The notes under the pieces: model-generated
The model's database searches: none
What the model was told of the DNA's origin: nothing
The model's input: only the letters and a program-made list of their open reading frames with translations
Position numbers and translations under genes: made by a program
Shown: in pieces, positions 4,708 through 38,496 of the stretch
How positions within the stretch are numbered: the stretch's first letter is position 1
Layout: every line of letters starts with the position of its first letter
Assembly: GCA_030018005.1 (NCBI GenBank)
Contig: JASEGT010000015.1
Location: 1 to 40,133, forward strand
Direction: 5' to 3'
DNA: 40,133 nucleotides
Source of the DNA: Actinomycetota bacterium
Lineage (GTDB): Bacteria; Actinomycetota; Aquicultoria; Aquicultorales; Aquicultoraceae

Positions 4708-5319
4708 ATGATAATTTTTCTAGACGATTCAGGCGACCCCGGGTTTAAGGTAGGCAAGGGTTCTACTGCTTCCTTGGTTATAGCACTTGTTATCTTCGAT
4801 GATGAACTCGAGGGAGAAGAGACATCGTTAAAAATAAAGAGGCTAAAAAGAGAACTTGGCCTAAAGGATACGTTTGAGTTTAAGTTCCATAAATGCAGGT
4901 CTGAATATAGGCGGCGCTTTCTTGAGAGGGTTGCTAATTGTGATTTTAGGGTTAGGGCCATAGTAATGGATAAGGGTCGAATTTACGGACCTGAGCTTAG
5001 AAGTTCTAAAGAGTCTTTCTATAACTTCACAATTAAAACCGTCTTAAAGAACCATCAAGGGACCATATCAAATGCCAAATTAAGACTAGATGGGCATGGC
5101 GAAAAAGCGCTTCGGAGGCAGCTTCGAGTCTATCTGAGTCGTGAGCTTGGACCCGGAATAATTAAAGACCTAAAGTTTAAAGACTCTGGGCGAGATGTCT
5201 TAATCCAGCTTGCCGATATGGTTGCCGGAAGTATTAGGGTTGCCCATGATGATGGCAGCGAGGATCACCGTAAAATAATAGAGCCTCGGCTGGAAGACAT
5301 CTGGATATTTGGACGGTAA
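4708..5319 (+). CDS. DUF3800 protein, second and divergent copy
   Basis: This is a 203-residue protein starting with the IIFLDDSGDPGF strand typical of DUF3800 (two early aspartates). It continues with a FKFHKCR segment, a central LRLDGHGEK strand, and the C-terminal LIQLADMVAGSI motif carrying the last conserved Asp. It is only distantly related to the DUF3800 protein at 3361. It stands alone between the two tRNA-Sec-like repeats, so it is the only recognisable cargo of that 1.36-kb segment. Its role is unknown; an association with defence or mobile DNA is inferred from the family's distribution. Confidence 0.75.
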   Translation: MIIFLDDSGDPGFKVGKGSTASLVIALVIFDDELEGEETSLKIKRLKRELGLKDTFEFKFHKCRSEYRRRFLERVANCDFRVRAIVMDKGRIYGPELRSSKESFYNFTIKTVLKNHQGTISNAKLRLDGHGEKALRRQLRVYLSRELGPGIIKDLKFKDSGRDVLIQLADMVAGSIRVAHDDGSEDHRKIIEPRLEDIWIFGR

Positions 5320-5647
5320 AAAAATTCGACCTAGCCCCTAGACTGGAGATATTCCAGCCACGCACGCCACAGGCGACAATTCGGGAACCAGGTCTTTGCA
5401 AAACCATTCTACTACAAGCATTAGCTCATGACTAGTAGATTTCAGTTTTTATTAAAAACTATATTGGTAGATATTTCAAGCTTCTTCTCTTCGGTTTCTA
5501 TATCGACAAGTTTTGATCGTTCTAAACCTATTTTAGCATGATGTATTAGTTGATTATCTGGATATTTTATTGACTCACATGGCGACCCAATAAGGGATAT
5601 TATTGCCTTTAGTAGCTTTGATGATAGTCTTTTGCGTATTCCGGCCC

Positions 5648-8559: not shown

Positions 8560-8790
8560 ATGTCTGGATTAGTAGAGCTTACGGCAGTAGAAAATGAGGT
8601 AGAGGCGGAGATGGTCAGTTCGCTTCTCGCTTCGCACGGTATCCAAACGGTAATAAAAGCGGCGCCGCTCGAGTTTCCGATGTCGGCGTTGCTTAGAGTG
8701 GTCTACGTTCTCGACGAAGACTTAGAGCGCGCGCTGGAGCTGCTCGATTCGAGCAACTTCGTCGCCGACGACGAGGATGATGAAGACTAG
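8560..8790 (+). CDS. DUF2007-type putative signal-transducing protein
   Basis: This is a 76-residue protein with the DUF2007 pattern: VELTAVENEVEAEMVSSLLASHGI followed by a V-V----L--ALELL helix and an acidic tail. The fold is ferredoxin-like and the function is not established. I chose ATG 8560 over TTG 8542. A TACAAT -10-like box at 8548-8553 ends only 6 nt before this ATG, and there is no Shine-Dalgarno sequence, so the mRNA may be leaderless. The stop overlaps the convergent end of nrdJ by 4 bp. Confidence 0.75.
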   Translation: MSGLVELTAVENEVEAEMVSSLLASHGIQTVIKAAPLEFPMSALLRVVYVLDEDLERALELLDSSNFVADDEDDED

Positions 8791-11700
8791 AGCGGGCAAT
8801 ATCCCCACGGACAGCCGCCAGAGTACTCCGATGCCGCCGTCACCGGCTGGTCGATTATCTTTCTATCTTCGGGCGTTCCGATATAGAGTACCTGCTCCTT
8901 TTTGCTCCCATACCGGTAAACGGTGATTCCTTTGCAGCCAAGCTCGTAAGCGAGGACAAAGACCTCGCGCACATCTTCGAGAGTCGCGTTCTCCGGAAGG
9001 TTGACCGTCTTGGAGACCGCGTTGTCGACATGTTTCTGAAACGCCGCCTGTATTCGCACATGCCACGCCGATTCGATATCGAGCGCCGTCACAAAGACGC
9101 GCCGTATATCCTCGGGTATCTCTTCCATCACCTGAATCGTCCCGTGTTTGGCTATTTTCATCATCAGGTCTTGGCTGTGGAATCCGCGCGCCTGCGCGAC
9201 CTTCTCGAAAACCGGGTCGACCTCGAGGAGCGTCGTTCCCTCCATGACTTCGCGCGCGTAGGAGACGGCGAAAAGGGGCTCTATCCCGCTGCTGGTGTTG
9301 GCGATGATGCTTATGGTGCCCGTTGGCGCGACCGTGGTCAGGGTAGCGTTGCGCATCGCATCGTAACCCATTGTGTCCCACTTGCTCCCTTTGAAGTTGG
9401 GGAAGGAGCCGCGCGTGCGCGCCAGCTCGGCCGAGGCGGCAATCGCCTCCTCGTAGACGAACTTCATCACCCGCTCCGCGATATCGAGTGCATCCTCCGA
9501 GTCATACGCGACCGCCAGCTCAAGGAGCATCTCGGCGAAGCCCATGACCCCGAGGCCGATTTTGCGGTTGGCTTTGGCCATATAGTCTATCTGGGGCAGC
9601 GGGTACTTGCCCGCGTCTATAACGTTGTCGAGAAAGCGTACTGATAGCCGCACCGTCTCTTTGAGCTTGTCCCAGTCTACGGCACCGTCGCGCACCATCT
9701 TGTGGAGGTTTATCGAGCCGAGATTGCACGGCTCATTGGGCAACAGAGGTACTTCACCGCACTGGTGGGTTATGATGCCGTTATAGGCAACTGTATGCGT
9801 AAATGGCTGCGTCGTATCGTACACATCAGCAAAACCCGCAGCCTCAATCGATGTGATAGTCGTCGTGAATGTCTCCCGGTTGCTCCTCCGTTTCTTTGCT
9901 TTGATAAAGGCTTCAACCTTTGATTGTTTGGCTTGGGAGAGAAACCCGACCTCCGTGACGAATCGGTCACGATTTTCTTTATCTACCAAGAGTTCATATT
10001 GCGGGCGTGTTTTCGTCGGGGTGTAAATGCCCTGCGAATTTGGGAGATGCGCGATACCTTCGCTTCGGCGTGTATGGAAGCGCGAGATGATACCGAGGTT
10101 AAGAAGGAGGAGTTGTACCTCTTTTAAAAGTTTTTCAGAGCTGCTGGCAAGGCGAATGCTGCACGAACCTTTATTGGTTGAAAGATTCACTGTGCCGTCG
10201 GTTGTGAAGAGCCCCTGTAGAAATCCCACCACACCATCGCGAGGTGCGCTCCAAATGGTGTCCGGTACGGTTTTCTCGTGAGATTTTGCGTTATTGATGC
10301 CGAGATTCGCAAGAAACCGTGCTGGGAATCCTTTGTATCTGAGTTGCGTCGAACCACGCTGTTCGCGCAGGTGGCCTTGGGCTCCAAACCAATCAGCGAA
10401 TAACTCCTGAAAGTATGGCATTAAATCGCGCTCGTCGCTCCCGAAGATGAGGGCGACCATCGCGCTGCTATTGAGCGTTAAAAAGCCATCCCCGACTAGC
10501 CAGCCGAGCAGCCGGCCGAGCTTTTTCGACCAGGTTTGCGGTGGATTAAATTTGCCGCTGCTTTTACCAGCGGCGAAACGGCCTCGCGCCGTATGATACT
10601 CCGGCACAAAGGGTGGTAGCTGTCGATTCTCCGACCAGTTACCCTCGCCGGCTTGCAGCAAGAGGGCATCTCCTGACCGCAGGTCTTTTAGTTCAATAAA
10701 ACCGTCAGGGGTGAGGAACCGATGGTTTTCAGTGGCCGTAAGCTCATAGCCATGTTTAGTCGTGACCTTAAAGACGGGCTGACTACTGCCCGTTTTAAAC
10801 ACCGGCACTGCAGGGAAGAAGGTGTTCTTGTTCGCATAGCGTTCGCCCCGCGACCCGGAGACAATGGTCAGCGCATTGAACGCCTCTTGCGAGACGAACA
10901 ACTCCTCCATCGTTACCAGACCGGCATCTGTAGAGATTCGCGTGGAGCCGACTACACAGGGATTTGTGCTCTCGAATATCCCCACTTCGGGGGTGGGGTT
11001 GGCCGCATTGGCGCGGTCGATGAAGAAGAGGCCGGGGTCGCCGGTCGTCCAGGCCATCGCTATTATCAAGTCGAAAAGCTCTTTAGCCGCCGCCGTACCG
11101 GTGGTCTCGCCGGTTCGCGGGTTGATGAGGTCGATGTCGCCCCCGGCGGCGACCGCCTCCATGAACTCATCGGTGACTGCGACCGAGATGTTGAAGTTGT
11201 CGAGAAAGCCCTCTTTTTTCTTAGCGGTGATGAACTCTATAATATCGGGATGGTCGCAGCGCAAGATGCCCATGTTGGCGCCGCGCCGCCTGCCGCCCTG
11301 TTTGATGACATCGGTCGCGACATCGAATACCCGCATAAAAGAGACCGGGCCCGACGCGACGCCCTTGGTCGATTTGACCAGGTCGCCTTTGGGACGCAAC
11401 CGCGAAAACGAAAAACCCGTCCCACCCCCGCTCTGATGGATGATGGCCATGTGTTTTACGGAATCGAAAATGGCCGGTATCGAATCTTCGACGGGAATCA
11501 CAAAACACGCTGCGAGCTGGCCCATCGAGGTACCCGCGTTCATCAGGGTAGGGGAATTAGGTATGAACTCGAAACCGGCCATCAGCCCATAGAAGGCCTC
11601 TTCGAGCGCTTTGACGTCGGCGTCTGCGTCGTAGAGCGTCTCGGCTGCGGCGACCGCGATTGCGACCCGCCTGAATAGCCGGCTCGGGGTCTCGATGGTT

Positions 11701-12104
11701 TTTCCTTGGTCATCCTTGAGGAGATAGCGGTGGCTCAGTACTTTCGCGGCGTTTACGCTCACCTTTAGGTCGTTGACCGGCACCCCGACGAACTCGCGCG
11801 CCCGACGCACGTTCGCACGCATCTGCCGGTAGAGGATATAGGCTTTGGCGACTTCGTGCAGGCCTTCCTCGCTTAGGACTCGCTCGACCGCGTCTTGGAC
11901 CTCTTCGACAGAGAGCATCCGCGGACCGCCTGCTTTCGACTCGAGCAGCAAAACGACCTTCTTGGCCAGCTCAGCTGCGACTTTTCCGTCGTGTGTGCCC
12001 GTGGCGTTGAGCGCTTTCTGAATCGCGTTCGAGATTTTGCCTACTTCGAAATCTACGGTGCGCCCGTCTCGCTTGCTTATCTTGGAAATACGCTGTCGAC
12101 CCAT
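8787..12104 (-). CDS. nrdJ: B12-dependent (class II) ribonucleotide reductase with intein
   Basis: The product makes dNTPs from NTPs/NDPs using adenosylcobalamin. I chose ATG 12104 (SD GGAGGTG upstream); TTG 12125 is in frame. The unspliced protein is 1105 residues: an N-terminal ATP-cone-like domain (~1-95), the reductase barrel with first redox cysteine in QLAACFVIP, QSGGGTGFSF, and the active-site N-P-C-x-E motif. The C-terminus ends with a short GGCPWGYCPL cysteine pair rather than the longer zinc ribbon of many NrdJ. A 399-residue intein splits NP|CGE, so mature NrdJ (~706 residues) is only active after splicing. Confidence 0.93.
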   Translation of the reverse strand: MGRQRISKISKRDGRTVDFEVGKISNAIQKALNATGTHDGKVAAELAKKVVLLLESKAGGPRMLSVEEVQDAVERVLSEEGLHEVAKAYILYRQMRANVRRAREFVGVPVNDLKVSVNAAKVLSHRYLLKDDQGKTIETPSRLFRRVAIAVAAAETLYDADADVKALEEAFYGLMAGFEFIPNSPTLMNAGTSMGQLAACFVIPVEDSIPAIFDSVKHMAIIHQSGGGTGFSFSRLRPKGDLVKSTKGVASGPVSFMRVFDVATDVIKQGGRRRGANMGILRCDHPDIIEFITAKKKEGFLDNFNISVAVTDEFMEAVAAGGDIDLINPRTGETTGTAAAKELFDLIIAMAWTTGDPGLFFIDRANAANPTPEVGIFESTNPCVVGSTRISTDAGLVTMEELFVSQEAFNALTIVSGSRGERYANKNTFFPAVPVFKTGSSQPVFKVTTKHGYELTATENHRFLTPDGFIELKDLRSGDALLLQAGEGNWSENRQLPPFVPEYHTARGRFAAGKSSGKFNPPQTWSKKLGRLLGWLVGDGFLTLNSSAMVALIFGSDERDLMPYFQELFADWFGAQGHLREQRGSTQLRYKGFPARFLANLGINNAKSHEKTVPDTIWSAPRDGVVGFLQGLFTTDGTVNLSTNKGSCSIRLASSSEKLLKEVQLLLLNLGIISRFHTRRSEGIAHLPNSQGIYTPTKTRPQYELLVDKENRDRFVTEVGFLSQAKQSKVEAFIKAKKRRSNRETFTTTITSIEAAGFADVYDTTQPFTHTVAYNGIITHQCGEVPLLPNEPCNLGSINLHKMVRDGAVDWDKLKETVRLSVRFLDNVIDAGKYPLPQIDYMAKANRKIGLGVMGFAEMLLELAVAYDSEDALDIAERVMKFVYEEAIAASAELARTRGSFPNFKGSKWDTMGYDAMRNATLTTVAPTGTISIIANTSSGIEPLFAVSYAREVMEGTTLLEVDPVFEKVAQARGFHSQDLMMKIAKHGTIQVMEEIPEDIRRVFVTALDIESAWHVRIQAAFQKHVDNAVSKTVNLPENATLEDVREVFVLAYELGCKGITVYRYGSKKEQVLYIGTPEDRKIIDQPVTAASEYSGGCPWGYCPL
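9762..10958 (-). mobile_element. Intein with LAGLIDADG homing endonuclease in nrdJ
   Basis: This is a 399-residue in-frame insertion. It starts with Cys (CVVGSTRIST, block A). A block B TATENHRFLT motif with TxxH follows. Two dodecapeptide endonuclease motifs are present, LLGWLVGDGF and LQGLFTTDGT, spaced ~110 residues apart. Block F VYDTTQPFTHTV and block G GIITHQ close it. The terminal residue is Gln, not the usual Asn, followed by Cys+1. That Cys is the reductase's own thiyl-radical cysteine in NPCGE. Gln-ending inteins are known and can splice. All catalytic blocks and both acidic endonuclease residues are present, so this looks like a full, possibly still homing, element. Confidence 0.93.
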
Positions 12105-12204
12105 ACCGTACTCCACCTCCGCCAATACTATGCGAATCCGCCAATACTATGCGAAAACCAACTGTCGGCAATCGACGCTAGTTTAAAACTTGCAAAACAC
12201 CGGC

Positions 12205-15863: not shown

Positions 15864-15944
15864 AACCTCAATCCCGCAGCTACTTGCTACTGTTATCGAT
15901 TTGTTATATCGTATTCTATTAGATACATAAGCATATTTTTGACT

Positions 15945-16074
15945 CCGACCCGAAATCCCTAAGGCGTAGGCTATGGGATGAGGGCGCATGGGTGTGACAG
16001 CAAGTGAGCACCCAGCCAGGGTCAAGCTGGAAACGGCGTGGCCTCCCGTGTTTGGAAAGGAGCCTGTTTATTTA
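15945..16074 (+). promoter_or_regulatory. Structured leader element A upstream of tupA (riboswitch-like)
   Basis: After the LysR stop, a compact region contains ATCCC/GGGAT enclosing CCTA/TAGG (15956-15980), GGGTG/CACCC (15990-16013), CCAGC/GCTGG and GGCCTCC/GGAGCC pairings, and it ends against an intrinsic terminator. The 19-nt motif CCTAAGGCGTAGGCTATGG (15958-15976) recurs with one change in element B. Position before a tungstate transporter suggests a Mo/W-cofactor (Moco/Tuco-type) riboswitch. I could not match the consensus by eye, so the class is a hypothesis. Confidence 0.45.
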
Positions 16075-16114
16075 GGCACCAGTCTGTCCACGAGCGGAGA
16101 CGGGTGTCTTTTTT
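16075..16114 (+). terminator. Intrinsic terminator in the tupA leader
   Basis: The stem GGCACC-a-GTCT pairs with AGAC-g-GGTGTC (16075-16085 with 16098-16108), ten pairs including one G-U and one internal mismatch, followed directly by six T (16109-16114). It ends element A and precedes element B and tupA. It could terminate the lysR transcript or act as the expression platform of element A. Confidence 0.7.
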
Positions 16115-16133
16115 ATTTGCACATAACGTATCT

Positions 16134-16210
16134 CCGAGCCGGCAAGCCTACGGCGTAGGCTATGGCGAACCGGCCGATAGGGTTGCTGGGGAAACCCGGC
16201 CGATTTTGAT
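16134..16210 (+). promoter_or_regulatory. Structured leader element B next to the tupA ribosome site
   Basis: GCCGG (16138-16142) pairs with CCGGC (16170-16174) around a GCCTAC/GTAGGC hairpin, followed by a GGGTT/AACCC hairpin (16180-16197). The motif CCTACGGCGTAGGCTATGG (16147-16165) differs from the one in element A at one base. The structure ends about 20 nt before the GGAGGAG ribosome site of tupA, so control of translation is possible. Confidence 0.45.
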
Positions 16211-16232
16211 GATTATCAGAGGAGGAGCAGGA

Positions 16233-17093
16233 TTGAAAAGAATTATATTAGTATTGCTCGCAATAGTCCTTGCGGCGGCGGTTATGGCGATTGCCGGTTG
16301 CTCGACGCAGCCGGCCGCGAACAAGACTATTATCTTGGCCACCACCACCAGTACTAAAGACACCGGCCTCTTGGATGAGCTGCTGCCGGCGTTTACAAAG
16401 AAGACCGGGATAACGGTAAAACTGGTCGCGGTCGGCACTGGTGAGGCATTGAAGATGGGCGAGCGCGGCGACGCCGATGTGTTGCTTGTGCACGCCAGGG
16501 CGTCTGAGGATGAATTCATGGCCGCGGGTTTCGGCAAGGTCAGAAAAGATGTCATGCACAACGATTTCGTGCTCATCGGCCCGGCGGATGACCCGACTGG
16601 TGCCAAAGGTGCGGCTAGTGCGGCTGTAGCGTTCGAGAAGATCATGTCGTATTGGTCTTTTCAAAGCTTGATGCTGGTGCCTCACCCGTTCGTATCGCGC
16701 GGCGACGACTCGGGCACCTACAAGAAAGAGCTTAAGATTTGGGAGCAGGCCGGCATTAAACCTGAGGGAAACTGGTATGCCATTACCGGCCAGGGGATGG
16801 CGCAGACCATCATCATCGCCAACGAGAAGCAGGGCTACACGCTCGCCGATCGCGGTACCTACCTGGTGCTGAAAGACAACATCGACCTGGTCGTTTTGAC
16901 CGAGAAGAGCAAAGACCTCCTCAATCCATACGGCGTCATCGCGGTAAACCCGGATAAGTTCCCGAAGGTCAACTATGACGGCGCGATGGAGTTTATCGAT
17001 TTTCTCACCTCGGCCGAAGGGCAGAAACTTATCGGCGAGTTCGGCAAGGATGAATTCGGCCAGGCGCTCTTCGTGCCGGACGCGAAGGATTAG
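16233..17093 (+). CDS. tupA: Tungstate-binding lipoprotein TupA
   Basis: I chose TTG 16233, which follows GGAGGAG (16221-16227) and gives a lipoprotein signal peptide (KRIILVLLAIVLAAAVMAIAGC, lipobox Ala-Gly-Cys); the frame itself is open further upstream. The mature part begins with the ILATTTSTKDTGLLDELLPAF segment, whose TTTS motif binds the oxoanion in TupA. Further signatures are GTGEALKMGERGDADVLLVHA and RGDDSGTYKKE. TupA delivers tungstate (rather than molybdate or sulfate) to TupBC. The 286-residue length is normal. Confidence 0.9.
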   Translation: MKRIILVLLAIVLAAAVMAIAGCSTQPAANKTIILATTTSTKDTGLLDELLPAFTKKTGITVKLVAVGTGEALKMGERGDADVLLVHARASEDEFMAAGFGKVRKDVMHNDFVLIGPADDPTGAKGAASAAVAFEKIMSYWSFQSLMLVPHPFVSRGDDSGTYKKELKIWEQAGIKPEGNWYAITGQGMAQTIIIANEKQGYTLADRGTYLVLKDNIDLVVLTEKSKDLLNPYGVIAVNPDKFPKVNYDGAMEFIDFLTSAEGQKLIGEFGKDEFGQALFVPDAKD

Positions 17094-19117: not shown

Positions 19118-20467
19118 ATGGTTATGGAAGAGAGCGACGGAAAACTCAATATGGCCGCGATAATCCTTGCCGGCGGCAGAAGTAGCCGCATGGGACGGGA
19201 TAAAAACCTGGTCGAGTTCGATGGGGAGCCGTTGCTGCTGCGCGCCGTTAACAACTTGGCAGCGCTCTTCAGCGAGGTCATCGTCGTCGCGAACCAGCCT
19301 ATTCCGCTGGAGGTGACCGGCGCCAAGGTCGTGAGGGATGCCGTTGCGAATCGAGGTCCGCTCGGCGGCATCGGCACCGGCCTGAAGGAGTCGTCGCACG
19401 AGACAAATTTTGTTCTCGCCGTAGACATGCCCTTTGCCGACCCGCAGGTCATCCGGTATTTGGCCGGACTGACCGGCAAGGCGGATATTGTGGTTCCAAG
19501 GACCGCCGGCGGGCTTGAGCCGCTCTTCGCGTTCTACGGCAAGCGCTGTCTTCCGGCTATCGATGAGGTGCTCGCGCGCGGTGAGCGCAAGGTGGCGGCG
19601 ATTTTTCCGCGGCTTAACGTCTGGATTGTGGGCAGCTCGGAGCTTGCCCACCTGGAAGGGGCCGATGTTTCTTTTGTAAACATAAATACATCACACGACC
19701 TGGACAAGGCGGAGCAGGGGATTGCCGGATTGATGGCTAAGAATAAAAAAGACGACCGGCGCCCACCGGTAGAGCGCCCGGTGACTATCTACATAGACGA
19801 TGAAGAGCTGGTGACGCTGCAATGCAGTCTCGAGCACCTCGACGAGCTGGCTTGCGGTTTTATGGTCGCCGAAGGCATCTTAGCGTCGCGCGATGAAATA
19901 AAGGGCTTGCGGGTCGATACGTGCCTCGGCGAAGCGCGCATCGAGCTCAAAAAAGCAAGGCCACTAGCGAGCGTCACGGCCGGACGGCGTTTTGTGACAT
20001 CCGGTTGCGGCAAAGGGCTTTCCTTTACCGACCCCGGCGATACGCGCGGTATCGGCAAACTCGATTCGGTCTTTTCAGTCGAGGCGGCGAGAATCCCGGA
20101 ATTGATGAAAGAGTTTTTAAGCCAGAGCCACCGGCCCGGCATGCACTCCTCGGCATTGGTCAAGGATGACAAGGTGTGGATGTTGCGCCAGGATATCGGC
20201 CGTCACAACACGGTCGACATGATTCTCGGGCGCTTGTTTCTCGACGATGAAACCGACCGCGACGTCATGCTATTGACGACCGGGCGCATCTCGTACGAGG
20301 TGGTGGTCAAAGCGGCGAAAGCGGGTATCCCCATTATCCTTTCGCGGACGGCGGCGACCGATATGGCGATTGATTTAGCTTACGAACTCGGAGTCGAGCT
20401 GGTCGGATATGTTCGGGGCCAGAATTCGCAGGTCTATACGGGCGGGTTAAGAATCCGGGGGAAGTAA
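19118..20467 (+). CDS. MobA-FdhD fusion: molybdenum cofactor guanylyltransferase plus formate dehydrogenase maturation factor
   Basis: One 449-residue frame carries two enzymes. Residues ~12-205 are MobA: AIILAGGRSSRMGRDK nucleotide-binding loop, RGPLGGIGTGL, and VDMPFADP with the metal-binding Asp. Residues ~220-449 are FdhD, the sulfurtransferase that inserts sulfur into bis-MGD of formate dehydrogenase: VTIYIDDEELVTLQCSLEHLDELACGFMVAEGI, GCGKG, QDIGRHNTVD and TTGRISYEVV. The FdhD CxxC loop is reduced to a single cysteine (TSGCGKG), as in a subset of the family. The fusion joins bis-MGD synthesis to delivery. Confidence 0.9.
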   Translation: MVMEESDGKLNMAAIILAGGRSSRMGRDKNLVEFDGEPLLLRAVNNLAALFSEVIVVANQPIPLEVTGAKVVRDAVANRGPLGGIGTGLKESSHETNFVLAVDMPFADPQVIRYLAGLTGKADIVVPRTAGGLEPLFAFYGKRCLPAIDEVLARGERKVAAIFPRLNVWIVGSSELAHLEGADVSFVNINTSHDLDKAEQGIAGLMAKNKKDDRRPPVERPVTIYIDDEELVTLQCSLEHLDELACGFMVAEGILASRDEIKGLRVDTCLGEARIELKKARPLASVTAGRRFVTSGCGKGLSFTDPGDTRGIGKLDSVFSVEAARIPELMKEFLSQSHRPGMHSSALVKDDKVWMLRQDIGRHNTVDMILGRLFLDDETDRDVMLLTTGRISYEVVVKAAKAGIPIILSRTAATDMAIDLAYELGVELVGYVRGQNSQVYTGGLRIRGK

Positions 20468-20479
20468 CCAGCACGTAGC

Positions 20480-20528
20480 CGTAGCTCAGCCCTTTAGCTG
20501 ACGCTCAGGGCTAAAGCCCTGAGCTACG
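20480..20528. repeat. Palindromic repeat after mobA-fdhD
   Basis: This 49-bp element begins CGTAGCTCAG and ends with its complement CTGAGCTACG. Inside is a second perfect stem, GCTCAGGGCT/AGCCCTGAGC, separated by AA. The alternative foldings are of similar strength. It looks like a dispersed REP- or MITE-like unit and may also end the mobA-fdhD transcript, though it lacks a T-run. Confidence 0.5.
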
Positions 20529-20589
20529 ATGGGGAAAAGGGGTCTTTTTACTACTTGCCACCCTTATTTGGCAGGAGGTATCGACGTTA

Positions 20590-20799
20590 TTGATAGGTGT
20601 TGAGGAAGCGCGAAGCACGATTCTATCGAAAACAGAGCGTCTCGAAACCGAAGAGGTTTCCATTTTGGAATCGCTCGGGCGGGTACTAGATGAGGATGCG
20701 ATGGGATGGGCTAATGGTTTGACGGCGGTGGCCGAAGACATGGAGTTAAAACCCGGTGACACTGTTACGGTGCAGCTAATGGAGCCGAATACAGATTAG
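20590..20799 (+). pseudogene. Internally deleted MoeA (mini-MoeA)
   Basis: This is a 69-residue frame from TTG 20590 behind AGGAGG (20573-20578). Residues 1-35 match the N-terminus of MoeA (VEEARSTIL...VSILESLGRVLDED). Residues ~38-64 match the end of MoeA domain IV (WANGLTAV...LKPGDTVTVQLME). The ~330 residues that bind molybdopterin-AMP and molybdate are absent, and the two ends are joined in frame. It cannot insert metal; it is either a decayed gene or a retained small peptide. It lies in the cofactor cluster, 16 bp before the next start codon. Confidence 0.6.
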
Positions 20800-20815
20800 A
20801 TTGGAGATAGACATA

Positions 20816-20995
20816 ATGGACAAGCCAACCGCGGAGGTTTTGAACCGCGTCGAAGAGGCGTCGAAAGACAAGCGGATATCGTGTACGGTCGCGCGCAAAG
20901 TCGCCGAAGACCTCGGCGTGCCGGTGCGTATAGTCGGCGATGCCTGCAACGAACTCGGTGTGAAGATACACGCCTGTGAGCTGGGGTGCTTTTAG
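20816..20995 (+). CDS. Conserved small protein upstream of mobB
   Basis: This is a 59-residue protein. ATG 20816 follows GGAGAT (20803-20808); a TTG 20801 is in frame. It looks like a small helix-turn-helix-type domain (VARKVAEDLGVPVRIVGDACNELGVKI) with a C-terminal CELGCF cysteine pair. Its stop TAG overlaps the GTG start of mobB. Similar small proteins accompany molybdenum-cofactor genes in anaerobes in my recollection, but I know no function. Confidence 0.6.
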   Translation: MDKPTAEVLNRVEEASKDKRISCTVARKVAEDLGVPVRIVGDACNELGVKIHACELGCF

Positions 20996-21534
20996 TGATA
21001 CCGGTCGTCTCGGTCGTCGGCAAATCGAACGCCGGCAAGACGACCTTTCTGGTAAAACTCATAGAGGAGCTTAAGGGGCGCGGTTACCGGGTCGCTATCA
21101 TAAAACACAACGTCCACGACTTCGAGATGGACCATCCCGGAAAGGATACCCACCGCCACTTCGAGGCGGGAGCCGACACGGTCGTCATCGCCTCGGCGCA
21201 CAAGATGGCGATGGTCAAGAGGCTTGATGGAGAGCTAGCGGTCGACGAAATAATCGCGCTGGTGGGGCCGGGCTACGATCTGGTCCTCACCGAGGGGTAC
21301 AAGCGCGGCCGCTTCCCGAAGATAGAGGTCTCGCGCAAAGACCACGGCAGCGAACTCATTAGCGAGGCAGATGAGCTTATCGCGGTCGTGACCGACAACG
21401 AATTCGCGGTGGAGCGACCGCAGTTTGCTTTAGATGACGCCGCCGGGGTGGCGGATTTAATAGAGAAGTCATACCTGGCCGGCGCAGACCGTCCAGGCGA
21501 GATAGAGGGAAGTCCGAGTGGAGCTTTACGATAG
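20995..21534 (+). CDS. mobB: MobB, molybdopterin-guanine dinucleotide biosynthesis GTPase
   Basis: The product is a 179-residue P-loop protein. I chose GTG 20995, which overlaps the previous stop (TAGTG); GTG 20986 is possible. The Walker A motif GKSNAGKTT lies at residues ~9-17. The IIKHNVHDFEMDHPGKDTHRHFEAGADTV segment (longer motif at ~40-68) and the LTEGYKRGRFPKIEV strand are diagnostic of MobB. It assists MobA in attaching GMP to the cofactor. moaA starts within its last codons. Confidence 0.88.
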   Translation: MIPVVSVVGKSNAGKTTFLVKLIEELKGRGYRVAIIKHNVHDFEMDHPGKDTHRHFEAGADTVVIASAHKMAMVKRLDGELAVDEIIALVGPGYDLVLTEGYKRGRFPKIEVSRKDHGSELISEADELIAVVTDNEFAVERPQFALDDAAGVADLIEKSYLAGADRPGEIEGSPSGALR

Positions 21535-22486
21535 GCTCAACCGTAGAATAGACTATTTGAGAATATCAGTGACCGATCGGTGCAACCTGCGCTGCGCGTA
21601 TTGCATGCCCGAGGCGGGGGTTGAAGCCAAGGCGCACTGCGACATCCTAAGCTACGAGGAGATAGAGCGCTTTGCCGAAGCCGCTGTCGCCGCCGGAATC
21701 TCGAAAATTCGCCTTACCGGCGGCGAGCCCCTGGTGCGAAAAGACGCGGTCGCTCTCGTCAAGATGTTGGCGGCGATACCGGGTCTGCGCGACATGTCGC
21801 TTACGACCAACGGGCTGCTCCTGCCGGACTACGGAGATGACCTCAAAGCCGCGGGCTTGAAGCGGGTCAACATCAGCATCGACAGCCTCGATTCGGATAT
21901 TTACCGGCGACTGACGCGCGTGGGCGACCTCAATAAAGCGCTCGCCGGCCTTAAAAAAGCGCTCGAACTCGGCTTTGAGCCGGTCAAGGTAAACGCCGTC
22001 TTGATGCGCGGTATAAACGATGACCCCAAAGCATTCATCGAGCTTATACACGAGTATCCGGTACACGTCCGGTTCATCGAGTATATGCCGGTCGGAGCGT
22101 GGGACCCGGCGCTTTATGTCTCGATAGACGAGTTCAAAGCAAACCTTGCCCGTTACGGCGCGGGTGACCCCGTCGAGGGTCCTCCCGGTGCCGGCCCGGC
22201 GACATACTTCGCTTTTGCGGGCGCTCCCGGCACCATCGGCTTTATCAGTCCTATTAGCAACCATTTCTGCGGCTCGTGCAACCGGCTGCGGCTCACCCCC
22301 GACGGTAAAGTCCGGCCATGTCTCTTCTCCGACGACGAGTTTGACATTCGCCCCAAGGTTGGGGATAACGTAAACAAGGACGAGACAATCGAATTTATCC
22401 GGGAAATACTGGCCGCCAAACCCGAACGGCACGTCGCTCACGAGAAAGAGCATCTCAAGCGGCTGATGTACCAGATTGGAGGATAA
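21518..22486 (+). CDS. moaA: GTP 3',8-cyclase MoaA (radical SAM)
   Basis: This is a 322-residue radical-SAM enzyme that starts pterin synthesis by converting GTP to 3',8-cyclo-GTP. N-terminal cluster motif C-x3-C-x2-C in [10 protein letters not shown] (Cys 22, 26, 29). The SAM-binding [12 protein letters not shown] follows. The C-terminal second cluster motif is [21 protein letters not shown] with the C-x2-C...C ligands. The start is GTG 21518, overlapping mobB by 17 nt, so the genes are translationally coupled. Confidence 0.95.
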
Positions 22487-22487
22487 G

Positions 22488-22979
22488 ATGGTAGACCGCT
22501 GGAAGATAGTCGAGGAAGAACTCAAAGTGTTGACGCATTTCAACAAAGAAGGCCGGGCACAGATGGTCGACGTGAGCGCCAAAGAGATCACCGCGCGTCT
22601 CGCAATCGCGCGCGGAATGGTGGCGATGAGACCTGAGACGATGCAGCTCATAAAGGATGGGGCCATCGAAAAAGGGGATGTGCTTAACGTCGCGCAGGTC
22701 GCGGGAATCATGGCGGCCAAAAAGACGTGCGAAATCATCCCGATGTGCCACCCGCTCCGGATAACCGCGGTCGACATCAATTTTTCGGAGCTGAGCGAGA
22801 CGGAGCTCGGTATAATCGCGACGGTCAAGACGATGGACAGAACCGGTGTCGAGATGGAAGCCTTGACCGCAGTCTCGGCCGCTGCCCTCACCGTCTACGA
22901 TATGTGCAAAGCGGTCGACAAGGGGATGCTCATCGGCGACATCGAGCTGGTCGAAAAGACCGGCGGCAAGAGCGGATAG
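22488..22979 (+). CDS. moaC: Cyclic pyranopterin monophosphate synthase MoaC
   Basis: This is a 163-residue protein acting after MoaA. ATG 22488 follows GGAGG with a one-base gap to the moaA stop. Signatures include [18 protein letters not shown] near the start, [20 protein letters not shown] and [29 protein letters not shown] with the active-site Asp and Lys. The length is standard. Confidence 0.95.
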
Positions 22980-23042
22980 GGGAGTAGGGTAGGAGTAGGG
23001 GACGTTCCTCGGATATCTCGGATTTGAGCTGGGTGGATAAGA

Positions 23043-23540
23043 ATGGAAGCGACAGAAGTGAAAAATCGGCTAAATCCGATGAACGTCCCTATATATATGA
23101 ACAAAACAGCGAAAATCATATCTATTAACATAAGCGAGAAGAAAGGCATGCGAAAAAAGCCCGTTGCCGGGGCGACGGTCGTCGTCGACCACGGCCTTGA
23201 GGGCGACGCGCACGCCGCCGACTGGCACCGCCAGGTAAGCCTTCTCGCGCAGGAGAGTATTGACAAGATGGTCTCCATGGGTTTGTCCGTGGGGCCGGGT
23301 GATTTTGCCGAGAACCTGACGACGAGCGGCATCGACCTGCTGGCGCTGCCTATAGGAACAAGGCTGAAGGTCGGCGACAATATCGTTTTAGAGGTGACCC
23401 AAATCGGGAAGGAATGTCATACCAGGTGTGCCATCTACCGGCAAGCGGGCGATTGTGTCATGCCAAAAGAGGGCATCTTCACCCGGGTGATAGCGGGTGG
23501 GCCGCTCAAAACGGGCGACACGGTAACGGCTGAGGGATAA
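23043..23540 (+). CDS. MOSC domain protein
   Basis: This is a 165-residue MOSC-domain protein: AKIISINISEKKGMRKKPV, GLEGDAHAADWHRQVSLLAQESIDKM, PGDFAENLTTSGIDL, and a cysteine-bearing IGKECHTRCAIYRQAGDCVMPKEGIF end. MOSC proteins handle the sulfurated molybdenum cofactor or metal-sulfur chemistry. Alternative starts at 23079 and 23097 would leave a more standard N-terminus, but GGTGG before 23043 favours the first ATG. It lies between moaC and mog, 2 bp before mog. Confidence 0.88.
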   Translation: MEATEVKNRLNPMNVPIYMNKTAKIISINISEKKGMRKKPVAGATVVVDHGLEGDAHAADWHRQVSLLAQESIDKMVSMGLSVGPGDFAENLTTSGIDLLALPIGTRLKVGDNIVLEVTQIGKECHTRCAIYRQAGDCVMPKEGIFTRVIAGGPLKTGDTVTAEG

Positions 23541-23542
23541 CA

Positions 23543-24052
23543 ATGAGACTTAAAGACGTGAAAGTCGGCATTTTGACCATAAGCGACAAAGGGTCGCGGG
23601 GCGAGCGCGAGGACACCAGCGGTCCCGAGATACGGCGTATCGTCGAGGCGGAGGGCGCGCGGGTAATATCGTACCAGGTAATCGCCGATGAGCAGTACCT
23701 TATCGAAGAGCGGTTGGTCTATCTCGCCGACTTCGACGATGCGGAGCTTATCTTTACGACCGGCGGTACCGGGTTTTCACCGCGCGACGTGACACCCGAG
23801 GCGACGCTCGCCATCATCGAACGGCTCGTGCCCGGCTTTGCCGAGGCCATCCGCCACGCCAGCCTCAAGATTACTCCTCACGCGATGCTCTCGCGTGCCG
23901 TCAGCGGTATCCGGGGCACCGCTATCATCGTCAACCTGCCCGGCAGCCCGAAGGCGGTGCGCGAATCTATAGAGGTCATAATGCCTGCGCTCCCGCACGC
24001 CATAGACGTGCTCAAAGGCAAAACCGAAGATTGCGCCGGGCATGCGCATTAA
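23543..24052 (+). CDS. mog: Molybdopterin adenylyltransferase (MogA/MoaB type)
   Basis: This 169-residue protein adenylylates molybdopterin before metal insertion. Signatures are VGILTISDKGSRGEREDTSGP, IFTTGGTGFSPRDVTPEAT and VNLPGSPKAVRES. It is the last gene of the cofactor cluster, coupled to the MOSC gene with a 2-bp gap. MogA and MoaB are hard to separate by eye. Confidence 0.92.
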   Translation: MRLKDVKVGILTISDKGSRGEREDTSGPEIRRIVEAEGARVISYQVIADEQYLIEERLVYLADFDDAELIFTTGGTGFSPRDVTPEATLAIIERLVPGFAEAIRHASLKITPHAMLSRAVSGIRGTAIIVNLPGSPKAVRESIEVIMPALPHAIDVLKGKTEDCAGHAH

Positions 24053-35216: not shown

Positions 35217-35531
35217 GTGAGCAACGAAAAGATAGAACCTATTCACCCAGGCGAAATTCTGCTTGAGGAGTTTCTCAAGCCAATGGGAATCAGTCAATAT
35301 CGTTTGGCCAAGGATATCAATGTGCCGGCACGGCGCATCAATGAGATTGTTCACGGCAAGCGAGCGGTTAGCGTTGATACGGCACTGAGATTGTCTCGAT
35401 ATTTTAGTCTATCCGAACGTTTCTGGCTTAATCTCCAAACACGCTATGATATCGAGGTACAGAAGGATAAGCTAGACAAATGCATCGAGGAAGAGGTCAA
35501 AGTTCTCGCAACAGATAAACAGAGTGCCTAG
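35217..35531 (+). CDS. HigA-family antitoxin (XRE), orphan
   Basis: This is a 104-residue protein with the HigA opening IHPGEILLEEFLKPMGISQYRLAKDINVPARRINEIVHGKRAVSVDTALRLSRYF (a helix-turn-helix at ~23-62). HigB toxins normally lie directly upstream, but the 172 bp before this gene contain only the promoter and one flanking repeat. The toxin appears lost, or the regulator works alone. Confidence 0.88.
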   Translation: MSNEKIEPIHPGEILLEEFLKPMGISQYRLAKDINVPARRINEIVHGKRAVSVDTALRLSRYFSLSERFWLNLQTRYDIEVQKDKLDKCIEEEVKVLATDKQSA

Positions 35532-35731
35532 CAAATCACTTTAGCGGACGTGCTAACTTATGGAAGCATGTAGCTGCTATTTCAAGCGATCGTTTGTCGA
35601 TAGAGAAGCTTACTTCATCATCTAAACCCTAAAGCATACAGAAAAGCGCGTTTGACCCGATTAATTAAACAATGCAGCATTTATGATGTAAAATGATAGC
35701 TAGTATCTATTCTGAAAGCACAGGAACAGCG

Positions 35732-36049
35732 ATGAAGATCAAAGCGCGTATTAAAATACCCCGTAAAAAAGTAGCTGAGTTTTGCGGAAAATGGAACATC
35801 CAAGAACTCGCGCTGTTCGGTTCGGTTCTTCGAGAGGACTTCCGGCCCGATAGCGATGTCGATGTGCTGGTCGTCTTTACCCCTGAAGCTAGGCATAGCT
35901 TGTTTGATTTAGCGCGCATGCAAGAGGAACTCAAAGAGATATTTGAACGCGAGGTTGATCTTGTAGAAAAGAAGGCTGTGGAGCAAAGCGAAAACTATAT
36001 ACGCCGCAAGCATATTCTTGATTCAACTGAGGTATTATATGTGGCGTGA
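35732..36049 (+). CDS. mntA: MntA-type nucleotidyltransferase antitoxin
   Basis: This is a 105-residue protein from ATG 35732. It carries the minimal nucleotidyltransferase motif LFGSVLREDFRPDSDVDVLV with GS...DxD. In characterised pairs MntA adenylylates the HepT toxin to silence it. The preceding 200 bp are AT-rich and probably carry the promoter. The end overlaps the hepT start by 11 nt. Confidence 0.88.
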   Translation: MKIKARIKIPRKKVAEFCGKWNIQELALFGSVLREDFRPDSDVDVLVVFTPEARHSLFDLARMQEELKEIFEREVDLVEKKAVEQSENYIRRKHILDSTEVLYVA

Positions 36050-36383
36050 CGAAGCGTTTGTGCTGGACATTCTTATTGCCGCCAAGCGAGCCAGGAAGTT
36101 CATTGGTGGCCTAAGATGGGAGAACTTTCAACAAGACGAACTGCGTTCCGACGCCATTATGAGAAACCTCGAGATTATCGGCGAAGCGGCCAACAAGATA
36201 TCACCGGAATTCAAGAACGCACACCCCGAGATACCCTGGAACGATATGGTAGGTATGAGGAATCGATTGATTCACGAGTATTTTCGAGTCGATTTTGTCA
36301 AGGTTTGGGATACAGTCCACAAAGATATACCAGCCTTGATCGCTCTGGTTGAACCGCTTGTTCCGCCCGAGGAGGATGTGTAG
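36039..36383 (+). CDS. hepT: HepT-type HEPN ribonuclease toxin
   Basis: This is a 114-residue helical protein; ATG 36039 is in the end of mntA. It carries the HEPN motif RNRLIHEY (Rx4H) and the downstream Tyr that is AMPylated in known systems. With mntA it makes a complete toxin-antitoxin module. The upstream in-frame ATG (36018) would only add seven residues. Confidence 0.88.
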   Translation: MWRDEAFVLDILIAAKRARKFIGGLRWENFQQDELRSDAIMRNLEIIGEAANKISPEFKNAHPEIPWNDMVGMRNRLIHEYFRVDFVKVWDTVHKDIPALIALVEPLVPPEEDV

Positions 36384-36738
36384 GAAGGCTGGACAACTAC
36401 GAAATACTGGGCGCTCTATCCATGTTAAACTTGCGCTTTATCCAATGTCTTCAAGAGCACAATCTCACGTACCGCCTGGCAGTCACCCAGCAAACTCACC
36501 TCAACCGCCCAACAATTACAAAACATACGCCGCTGATTAAGCGCCATCCCTTTCACACTTACCGAACATAACCATATAATAAGTATAAAGAAATCAAATT
36601 TATTGGTGACTATTCTTCTGATTGCTGATATAATCGGCTCAACGCTATACACCAATTAAGTGCCAGTTAAGCTTTTCTGAGAAACGATTTACGGGGTGAT
36701 TCACCATCAAGGGTATATTTAAAGGTTATAAAGGAAAA
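36384..36738. other. Intergenic stretch without recognisable gene
   Basis: I see no convincing gene in these 355 bp. A minus-strand 76-codon frame (36425-36655) has no recognisable similarity. The right end holds a GGGGTGA ribosome-site-like sequence (36693-36699) followed after 6 nt by ATC, relevant to the start of the next gene. Confidence 0.4.
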
Positions 36739-37419
36739 TTGCTTGTATTACTAATAATTATACTACTCTATATGTTTGTGCCTTTTATTAAGGTAAATTT
36801 CAACCAGGCCGTTTTTATAATGAGCAATCTCGATGTCGAGCTGGTAAAAGGCTATATCTTGGGGTTTGGTATCTGGGCGCCGGTAGCCTCGTTCGTCCTC
36901 ATGGTCTTTCAGTCGGTGATAGCGCCGCTCCCGGCTTTTCTTATCACGTTTGCCAACGCCGGCCTCTTCGGATGGGTTAAGGGAGCCATTCTGTCATGGT
37001 CGAGCGCGATGGCAGGCGCGGTGCTATGCTTCTATATCGCCCAGTACTTCGGCCGGGAAGCGGTGGAGAGGCTTACATCACGCACCGCGCTCAAAAGCGT
37101 CGATGTTTTCTTTGAGAACTACGGCAAGTATGCGATTCTTATCGCGCGCTTGCTGCCGTTCGTCTCGTTCGACATCGTAAGCTACGCGGCCGGGTTGACA
37201 TCGATGAGCTTCTGGCCGTTTTTCATAGCGACGGGCGTAGGGCAGCTGCCCGCGACTATCGTCTATTCCTATATTGGGGGGATGCTGACCGGCACCACCA
37301 AGACGATGGTCACGGGATTACTAATGCTCTTTGCCCTAAGCGCATTAGCGGTGATGTTAAAGAAAGTTTGGACGGACAGGAAACAAAGGGAGGTTGGTAG
37401 TATTGAGAAAGCGGTTTAG
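36739..37419 (+). CDS. TVP38/TMEM64 (VTT-domain) membrane protein
   Basis: This is a 226-residue membrane protein with about five or six hydrophobic segments. It carries the VTT/DedA-like signature: FQSVIAPLPAFLITFANAGLFG, then GREAVERL, and RLLPFVSFDIVSYAAGLTSM. The TTG 36739 has AAGGA too close to it. The frame is open back to 36700 and includes a basic IKGIFKGYKGK leader expected in this family, so a non-canonical ATC start at 36706 is possible. It overlaps the rhodanese gene by 17 nt, so the two are one operon. Its role is unproven; lipid or small-ion handling is suggested for the family. Confidence 0.82.
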   Translation: MLVLLIIILLYMFVPFIKVNFNQAVFIMSNLDVELVKGYILGFGIWAPVASFVLMVFQSVIAPLPAFLITFANAGLFGWVKGAILSWSSAMAGAVLCFYIAQYFGREAVERLTSRTALKSVDVFFENYGKYAILIARLLPFVSFDIVSYAAGLTSMSFWPFFIATGVGQLPATIVYSYIGGMLTGTTKTMVTGLLMLFALSALAVMLKKVWTDRKQREVGSIEKAV

Positions 37420-38407
37420 TCTAACGCATGCGACGATACTTATTGCATGCTTTTTGCTCGCACTGTGGGTTGCCGGGTGCGCGCAAGAACCTTCGCCGAA
37501 GTCTTCTTCGACGGACAAAAACGCGGACGTAGCCGGCAAACCAGCAACGTCGGAGACAAAAGAAATCGATCTCGCGGTCTACAAAAACAATGAGTTCCTT
37601 ATTACACCGCAGGAGCTAAAAGGGATGCTCGGCAGCGAGGACCTGGCTCTGTTCGACTGCAACAAACCCGATATCTATGCGAAAGAGCACATACCGGGCG
37701 CTGTGGGCATCGGCCTTCATGCGTTCTCAGACAAGGTTGGAAAACCCGGAGACCCTGGGTGGGGAACCATAAAGAACAAAGCCGAGCTGAAAAAAGCACT
37801 GGAAGCGCTAGGTATTGACAACGATAAGACGGTTGTCTTTTACTCAGACGTCTTCCAAGGCCCGGGTGCTGACGGTAGAGCCGTGTGGCAGCTGAGACTT
37901 GCCGGCATGGACAACGTCAAGTTCTTAGCGGGCGGGCTTTCGTACTGGAAAGAGCTGGGCTATGATGTGACCGGCGAGCCCGCGCAGCCAAAGCCGACGA
38001 CCGGTGTCGAGCTCAAAGACTATGATGAGAGTAATATAGCCACTAAAGCCTACGTCTCAGATAACCTCGCCAAACAGGTCTTGCTCGACGTGCGGACCGA
38101 GGGTGAGTACAAGGGTTCGCAAAAAGCCGGAGAGCCGAGAGGCGGACACATCAAGGGCGCAAAATTGATGCTCTGGCTCGACCTACACAACGAAAACGGC
38201 ACTCCGAAGACGCCTGAAGAAATCACGAAAATCATGGCCTCTTACGGTGTCTCGCCCGAAGATGACTTTATACTCTACTGAACAATGGGTATCAGATCTG
38301 GATATGCATCCATGATCCTCAGAGCAGTTGGCTTTGAGAAAGTAAGAAACTACGAAGCGTCCGTCTATGAGTGGGGCGGCGATTCAAAAATGCCCATGGA
38401 GAAATAG
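37403..38407 (+). CDS. Extracytoplasmic rhodanese lipoprotein with in-frame TGA (selenocysteine candidate)
   Basis: TTG 37403 follows AGGGAGG (37387-37393). A lipoprotein signal ends in VAGC. Domain 1 (~50-180) is rhodanese-like, but its active loop reads VVFYSD, without cysteine. Domain 2 (~195-334) reaches FILY, then TGA at 38279-38281, then TMGIRSGYASMILRAVGF and VRNYEASVYEWGGDSKMP to the TAG at 38405. TGA replaces the catalytic cysteine of CxxGxR exactly. The full product would be 334 residues with Sec293. If TGA is a real stop, the protein ends just before its active site. Confidence 0.8.
38295..38317 (+). promoter_or_regulatory. Candidate bacterial SECIS stem-loop
   Basis: Beginning 13 nt after the TGA: GATC, a bulged T, GGAT, loop ATGC, ATCC, two unpaired bases, GATC. 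The bulged U below a short apical stem and a G in a 4-nt loop resemble the E. coli fdhF element in layout and distance. The stem is short, so this is a weak structural call that relies on the TGA context. Confidence 0.45.
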
Positions 38408-38454: not shown

Positions 38455-38496
38455 GATGCGCGTGGGGCAGCTTGCCGACACGCGCATCTTGTCATT
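38455..38496 (+). terminator. Terminator after the rhodanese gene
   Basis: A perfect 10-bp stem GATGCGCGTG/CACGCGCATC (38455-38464 with 38479-38488) is followed by TTGTCATTT. It lies 48 bp after the distal stop (38407), not the TGA, consistent with the longer reading frame being the gene. Confidence 0.6.

Follow-up and report, generated by a model that had tools for sequence, protein, structure and literature searches.

Conserved in-frame TGA almost certainly encodes selenocysteine in a predicted lipid-anchored rhodanese paired with a VTT membrane protein

The window, the whole stretch of 40,133 nucleotides analyzed here, is contig 35 of a 2.19-Mb Actinomycetota genome assembly that is 99% complete. 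Two genes stand together on its forward strand. The first (36739 to 37419) encodes a VTT (TVP38/DedA-like) membrane protein (PF09335, E value of 7e-29); a promoter-like site, TTCACA-17-TATAAT, lies upstream of it at 36552 to 36580 on the same strand (a consensus match only), and its end overlaps the start of the second gene, a rhodanese. Under translation table 11, the rhodanese open reading frame spans 37394 to 38281, with TTG at 37403 as its likely start, and terminates at a TGA codon (38279 to 38281). Reading through this TGA yields a coding sequence from 37403 to 38407 that ends at TAG (38405 to 38407) and specifies a 334-residue rhodanese with selenocysteine (Sec) at residue 293. The Pfam rhodanese model matched two stretches of this product. 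The original prediction, a gene reading through TGA with rhodanese similarity on both sides, stands with its coordinates. The prediction had also placed a terminator after the distal stop. There is a strong hairpin at 38455 to 38488 on the forward strand, a possible terminator, but its T-tract is weak and a terminator scan did not call it.

Several other features of the window deserve mention in their own right. At 35217 to 36383 on the forward strand, upstream of the VTT gene, are a HigA-like regulator and a nucleotidyltransferase/HepT-like pair of the MNT-HepT toxin-antitoxin type, a stretch common to the window and genome G002. A Moco/tungsten riboswitch (RF01055, 72 bits; 15931 to 16078, forward strand) precedes a gene at 16038 to 17093 whose product resembles a tungstate-binding ABC transporter protein; permease-like and ATPase-like genes come next. 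A run of molybdopterin-cofactor-like genes, named by eye, occupies 19118 to 24052 on the same strand, with a MobA-like/FdhD-like fusion at 19118 to 20467 and MobB-, MoaA-, MoaC-, MOSC-, and MogA-like proteins. On the reverse strand, a ribonucleotide reductase-like protein (8787 to 12125) has an apparent intein, judged by eye from a Cys start and an HQC junction, and a DUF3800-IX RNA (RF02968, 53 bits; 5324 to 5394) lies directly after a DUF3800-looking gene (4708 to 5319) on the opposite strand. The stop codons of the window's 30 main genes are 20 TAG, 7 TAA, and 3 TGA.

The rhodanese begins as a lipoprotein would. A hydrophobic signal helix, residues 4 to 23 in the structure model, leads into a V-A-G-C lipobox (residues 23 to 26, 37469 to 37480), with lipidation predicted at Cys26; the sequence thus has both an N-terminal signal helix and a lipobox Cys, and a lipobox-like Cys is retained in the aligned orthologues. 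Domain 1 (37604 to 37954; PF00581, residues 68 to 184) has the loop YSDVFQGPGADGR, and domain 2, the catalytic domain, corresponds to the second Pfam stretch, with approximate bounds of 38027 to 38401 drawn from the alignment and the model. In the alignment, the TGA of the UTMGIR loop coincides with the column that holds Cys in homologues; the sequence here reads U-T-M-G-I-R-S, and the TGA codon is, as predicted, the first position of a CxxGxR-type active loop. The TGA-encoded residue is the only reactive residue at an active-site column, and it belongs to domain 2. Domain 1 was said to have lost its cysteine; indeed none is found in this loop in any orthologue examined, but two-domain rhodaneses normally have no Cys in the first domain (PMC6856128), and this is their usual state rather than a special loss. 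With an inactive first domain and a catalytic Cys/Sec in the second, the protein has the domain layout of the two-domain TST/COG2897 type. Compared with the TST loop motif CRxGx(R/T) (PMC6856128), the G and the loop-end Arg agree, whereas position 2 of the loop has Thr in place of Arg. The AlphaFold model has a pLDDT of 84, and its best matches among named solved structures are CysA3, CysA2, and SseA of Mycobacterium tuberculosis.

Orthologues were collected by searching relatives, a public genome set, and the order around locus L055. This gave 18 distinct orthologous genes besides that of the window, 52 to 91% identical, in relatives of Candidatus Aquicultor and in Pelotomaculum, Desulfoscipio, Desulfosporosinus, and other Peptococcaceae-type Bacillota. 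All 18 have TGA at this codon followed by an intact tail, UTMG(I/M)RSGY, which with the window's gene makes 19/19. Alignment of domain 2 with homologues outside this clade placed Cys in the column, as the proposal of Sec had anticipated: 29 more distant homologous loci have TGC or TGT, and a single distant homologue, L027, has TGA. The nearest Cys forms (CTKGIRSG and CTVGIRSG, encoded with TGC or TGT) are about 33 to 39% identical, and the remaining Cys homologues, about 26 to 38% identical, have TGC. An in-frame TGA opposite Cys in homologues, conservation of both flanks, and retention of the TGA in relatives are features expected of a bacterial selenoprotein, and chance is excluded because 18 other orthologous genes keep both the TGA and an intact, highly conserved tail. 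An error in sequencing, or a recent nonsense mutation in TGC or TGT, would take only one base change from a Cys codon, but the same TGA, not TGC or TGT, stands in the 18 other genes from other, independent assemblies, which leaves this reading with a negligible probability.

In a maximum-likelihood tree, the 19 Sec genes group as a single clade whose Cys sisters belong to the same order. Aquicultor is placed inside Bacillota branches, and this placement suggests that horizontal transfer produced the distribution of this Sec-rhodanese between Aquicultor and Bacillota. L027 (183 to 1093, reverse strand, genome G013) is a distantly related rhodanese that likewise has TGA at the catalytic position (UKIGFRS). 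It falls outside the 19-gene clade, on a long branch whose position is unsure, so that the tree requires two Cys/Sec switches, and L027 appears to be an independent switch from Cys to Sec. One genome of the Bacillota (G089; loci L093, L103, and L104) has one Sec-rhodanese together with two Cys paralogues. Two relatives have damaged copies: that of Desulfosporosinus sp. BG (L057, 3941 to 4711) is truncated before the TGA, though the genome has tRNA-Sec, and that of genome G086 (L097, 1495 to 2455) is frameshifted upstream of the TGA, with a tail that still has the TGA.

The genome is equipped to insert selenocysteine. A single cluster on contig 48 contains selA (624 bits), selB (381 bits, above the cut-off), a tRNA-Sec(UCA), and selD (358 bits), so that selA, selB, and selC, whose absence would have counted against Sec, are all present, as is selD. 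The genome's selD itself has an in-frame TGA, at SGUAAKMGP, and encodes the Sec form of SelD, and the same is true of the relatives' selD genes (11/11 fetched); tRNA-Sec was found in 7/7 named genomes with orthologues that were checked. A general reassignment of TGA to Trp or Gly, which the rarity of TGA stops in the window (3/30 genes) might seem to favor, is ruled out to the point of being vanishingly improbable, since TGA still terminates some genes there, the column is Cys in homologues and never Trp or Gly, and the genome has tRNA-Sec(UCA), selA, selB, and a Sec-containing SelD.

Behind the TGA, conservation reaches the RNA. When codons for the same residue were compared among ten orthologues, same-codon identity was 80% at residues 301 to 312 and 64% at residues 313 to 324, against a baseline of 42% at residues 60 to 270, and the twelve top 22-codon windows of the gene all begin at residues 292 to 306. 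For codons +13 to +20, the value was 0.81 in the 19 Sec genes versus 0.50 in near and 0.43 in far Cys genes. A hairpin, H1 (38295 to 38317, forward strand), consisting of a GAUC/GAUC lower stem, a single bulged U on the 3' side, and an upper stem, begins after exactly 13 nt (38282 to 38294), which bears out the predicted stem-loop with a bulged U. H1 is 23 nt long, and 22 nt separate the UGA from its apical loop. It folds in 19/19 Sec genes (-4.5 to -9.3 kcal/mol) versus 0/5 of the nearest Cys genes. Covariation is seen in three genes in which an upper-stem A-U pair becomes U-A and in three in which the Ser/Met codons TCT/ATG become TCG/ACG, giving a G-C pair; two Desulfosporosinus-type genes have a shifted GCU/AGC upper stem. 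None of 2,000 shuffles, which ignore relatedness, reached the H1 pairing score. The gene thus has, downstream of its TGA, an RNA hairpin under RNA-level selection. A second hairpin, H2 (38318 to 38338, forward strand), follows directly and may extend the selenocysteine insertion element (SECIS); seven of its pairs are standard in 19/19 Sec genes, and the synonymous conservation reaches across it. Relative to synonymous shuffles, the first 42 nt show no unusual stability, whereas the first 60 nt are modestly more stable (z of -1.2 to -2.8).

The strict rule for bacterial SECIS elements (bSECIS) specifies a loop of 3 to 9 nt, G in the first two positions, a spacing of 16 to 37, and a minimum free energy (MFE) of ≤ -7.5 (PMC13188914). 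Checked against it, H1 fits in spacing (22 nt) and loop size, but G position and energy are not attained together, and for that reason we call H1 non-canonical. The best rule-compliant fold in the window reaches -5.1, and that in one relative -7.2. Of 11 Sec genes scanned strictly, none but the distant L027 had a hairpin that complies with the standard rule and attains its energy (-9.5, loop GGU). Since some putative bSECIS are acknowledged to lie outside the published model (PMC13188914), this outcome lowers only the claim of a canonical bSECIS, and H1 looks like a well-supported but divergent SECIS candidate. In the selD genes of the relatives and of the window's genome, a hairpin GGUC-(C/U)GG...-GACC begins about 12 nt after the UGA; H1 (GAUC-UGG...-GAUC) starts one base further on, and a G(A/G)UC-N-GG stretch is common to both. 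The likeness is no more than suggestive, since codons of this kind are also favored by the rhodanese residues R-S-G.

These data also bear on whether the TGA is simply a true stop, which would yield a protein of 292 residues whose second domain is incomplete and would make the tail a fossil or pseudogene remnant. TGA does serve as an ordinary stop in 3/30 genes of the window, and damaged copies exist in two relatives (L057 and L097). However, no part of the protein is better conserved than the tail, TGA rather than TAA or TAG is retained in 19 genes over two phyla, and the RNA-level constraint is located just behind it. No relative has a genuine stop with decayed downstream sequence, and both damaged copies are broken before the TGA, not at it. 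We consider a true stop very unlikely. TGA with an intact tail in relatives rules out a pseudogene as it does a sequencing error. Taken as a whole, the locus is best explained, with a probability of roughly 95%, as a genuine selenoprotein gene whose product is a two-domain rhodanese of the CysA/SseA (thiosulfate sulfurtransferase) type, lipid-anchored and extracytoplasmic, encoded with a VTT protein.

The likeness to CysA2 indicates the probable chemistry. CysA2 pairs an inactive N domain with an active C domain bearing CRIGER and shows TST and MST activity (thiosulfate and 3-mercaptopyruvate) (PMC6856128), and in RDL2 the loop-end Arg is required for taking sulfur from thiosulfate (PMC8533005). 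By analogy, we infer that the protein functions as an extracytoplasmic, lipid-anchored sulfane-sulfur transferase with an Se-S intermediate. SelA and SelD would make Sec-tRNA(Sec), which SelB would deliver to the UGA at 38279, guided by the hairpin at 38295 to 38317 and perhaps by a SECIS extended through the second hairpin (38318 to 38338). Sec293 in domain 2 would then attack a sulfane-sulfur donor, for example thiosulfate or a persulfide, with Arg298, at the end of the loop, activating the donor or aiding cleavage of its S-S bond; the sulfur would be carried on Sec293 as Se-S- and handed to an acceptor outside the membrane. The VTT protein may carry out a membrane step in the handling of sulfur, selenium, or arsenic.

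The pairing with a TVP38 protein, part of the original prediction, is kept in all loci tested: a VTT orthologue, 74 to 96% identical, lies directly upstream at each, with only its tail visible at L053, where the contig ends. In Bacillota, the pair is found in arsenosugar/selenoprotein clusters, near varying sets drawn from ArsM, ArsS (rSAM/SeCys), TIGR04282/TIGR04283 arsenosugar glycosyltransferases, a BioB-like radical SAM protein, and a C_GCAxxG_C_C protein. Such neighbors would fit an enzyme in which Sec is real but which handles selenium or arsenic, for example in perselenide or organoarsenical transfer, rather than sulfane sulfur. Against this, the fold and loop are of the thiosulfate sulfurtransferase type, L069 instead has sulfur-type genes upstream (DsrE-like and TauE, along with an MBL hydrolase and an ArsR-type regulator), and in the window's genome no ArsS was found above the cut-off and the pair stands without an arsenosugar cluster. 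The link to arsenosugar genes thus breaks down in the window's genome. A selenium or arsenic role seems improbable, if the most serious competitor to sulfane-sulfur transfer. A broader proposal is tentative: the VTT-Sec-rhodanese pair may constitute a dedicated extracytoplasmic chalcogen-transfer module, horizontally shared between Aquicultoria and Peptococcaceae, linked to organoarsenical and selenoprotein clusters, and served by a two-hairpin SECIS outside the published bSECIS model.

Sec-rhodaneses as such are not new. A prediction from Sargasso Sea data placed them among COG2897 proteins in 2005 (PMC1088965), a further count dates from 2008 (PMC2398784), and they are listed as COG2897/SseA (PMC9312934) and as five forms, two of them with UxxG (PMC13188914). 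To call this an unusual selenoenzyme, as had been done, was an overstatement given the several forms already catalogued (PMC1088965, PMC9312934, PMC13188914). The window's clade shares with the COG2897/SseA UxxG form (the Sargasso Sea family; "form 4" of PMC13188914) the COG2897 type and Sec in UxxG, and that form was likewise predicted from an in-frame TGA and Cys homologues. By description, the clade is set apart by its lipid anchor, its VTT pairing, its occurrence in Aquicultoria and Peptococcaceae-type Bacillota, and a SECIS candidate that fails the standard model. M. tuberculosis CysA2, CysA3, and SseA have the same inactive N domain, active C domain, and CxxGxR loop, but they have Cys (CRIGER) rather than Sec and are about 26 to 29% identical to the window's protein, and no lipid anchor or VTT pairing is reported for them in the literature searched. 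Escherichia coli YnjE matches the window's rhodanese in sequence and fold but is a larger, Cys enzyme. In E. coli K-12, ynjE shares a gene run with the DedA-family genes ydjX and ydjZ, and the VTT-rhodanese association thus recurs with a Cys enzyme; the run also includes a ferredoxin-type protein, an AhpD-like protein, and an ABC transporter. Two other families of rhodanese-domain selenoproteins, the TsoB rhodanese/DsbD fusion-like selenoprotein (NF045694, 24/805 bits) and the rhodanese-related (seleno)protein NF041203 (29/115 bits), score far below cut-off and differ in architecture and Sec motifs, and no NCBIfam model names this Sec-rhodanese subfamily at its cut-off. A literature search found no paper joining TVP38, rhodanese, and selenium. 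Within the literature searched, the traits that appear new are the non-canonical covarying SECIS hairpin, the lipid anchor, the partnership with VTT, and the neighborhood of arsenosugar clusters.

Because catalogues have included Sec-rhodaneses, SseA-like UxxG forms among them, since 2005, the clade adds to a known kind; it is a well-supported new branch that extends them to a coherent set of 19 genes in two phyla and now links them to VTT membrane proteins and arsenosugar-type gene clusters. Its conserved RNA element, with compensatory changes, escapes the standard bSECIS rule, and ordinary annotation stops these proteins just short of the catalytic residue. Sec and Cys paralogues together in one genome, as in G089, offer a natural comparison that can test what a rhodanese gains from Sec. 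Here, the TGA inside the gene is almost certainly read not as a stop but as selenocysteine, which would be the catalytic residue of a sulfurtransferase predicted to be anchored on the outside of the cell membrane.
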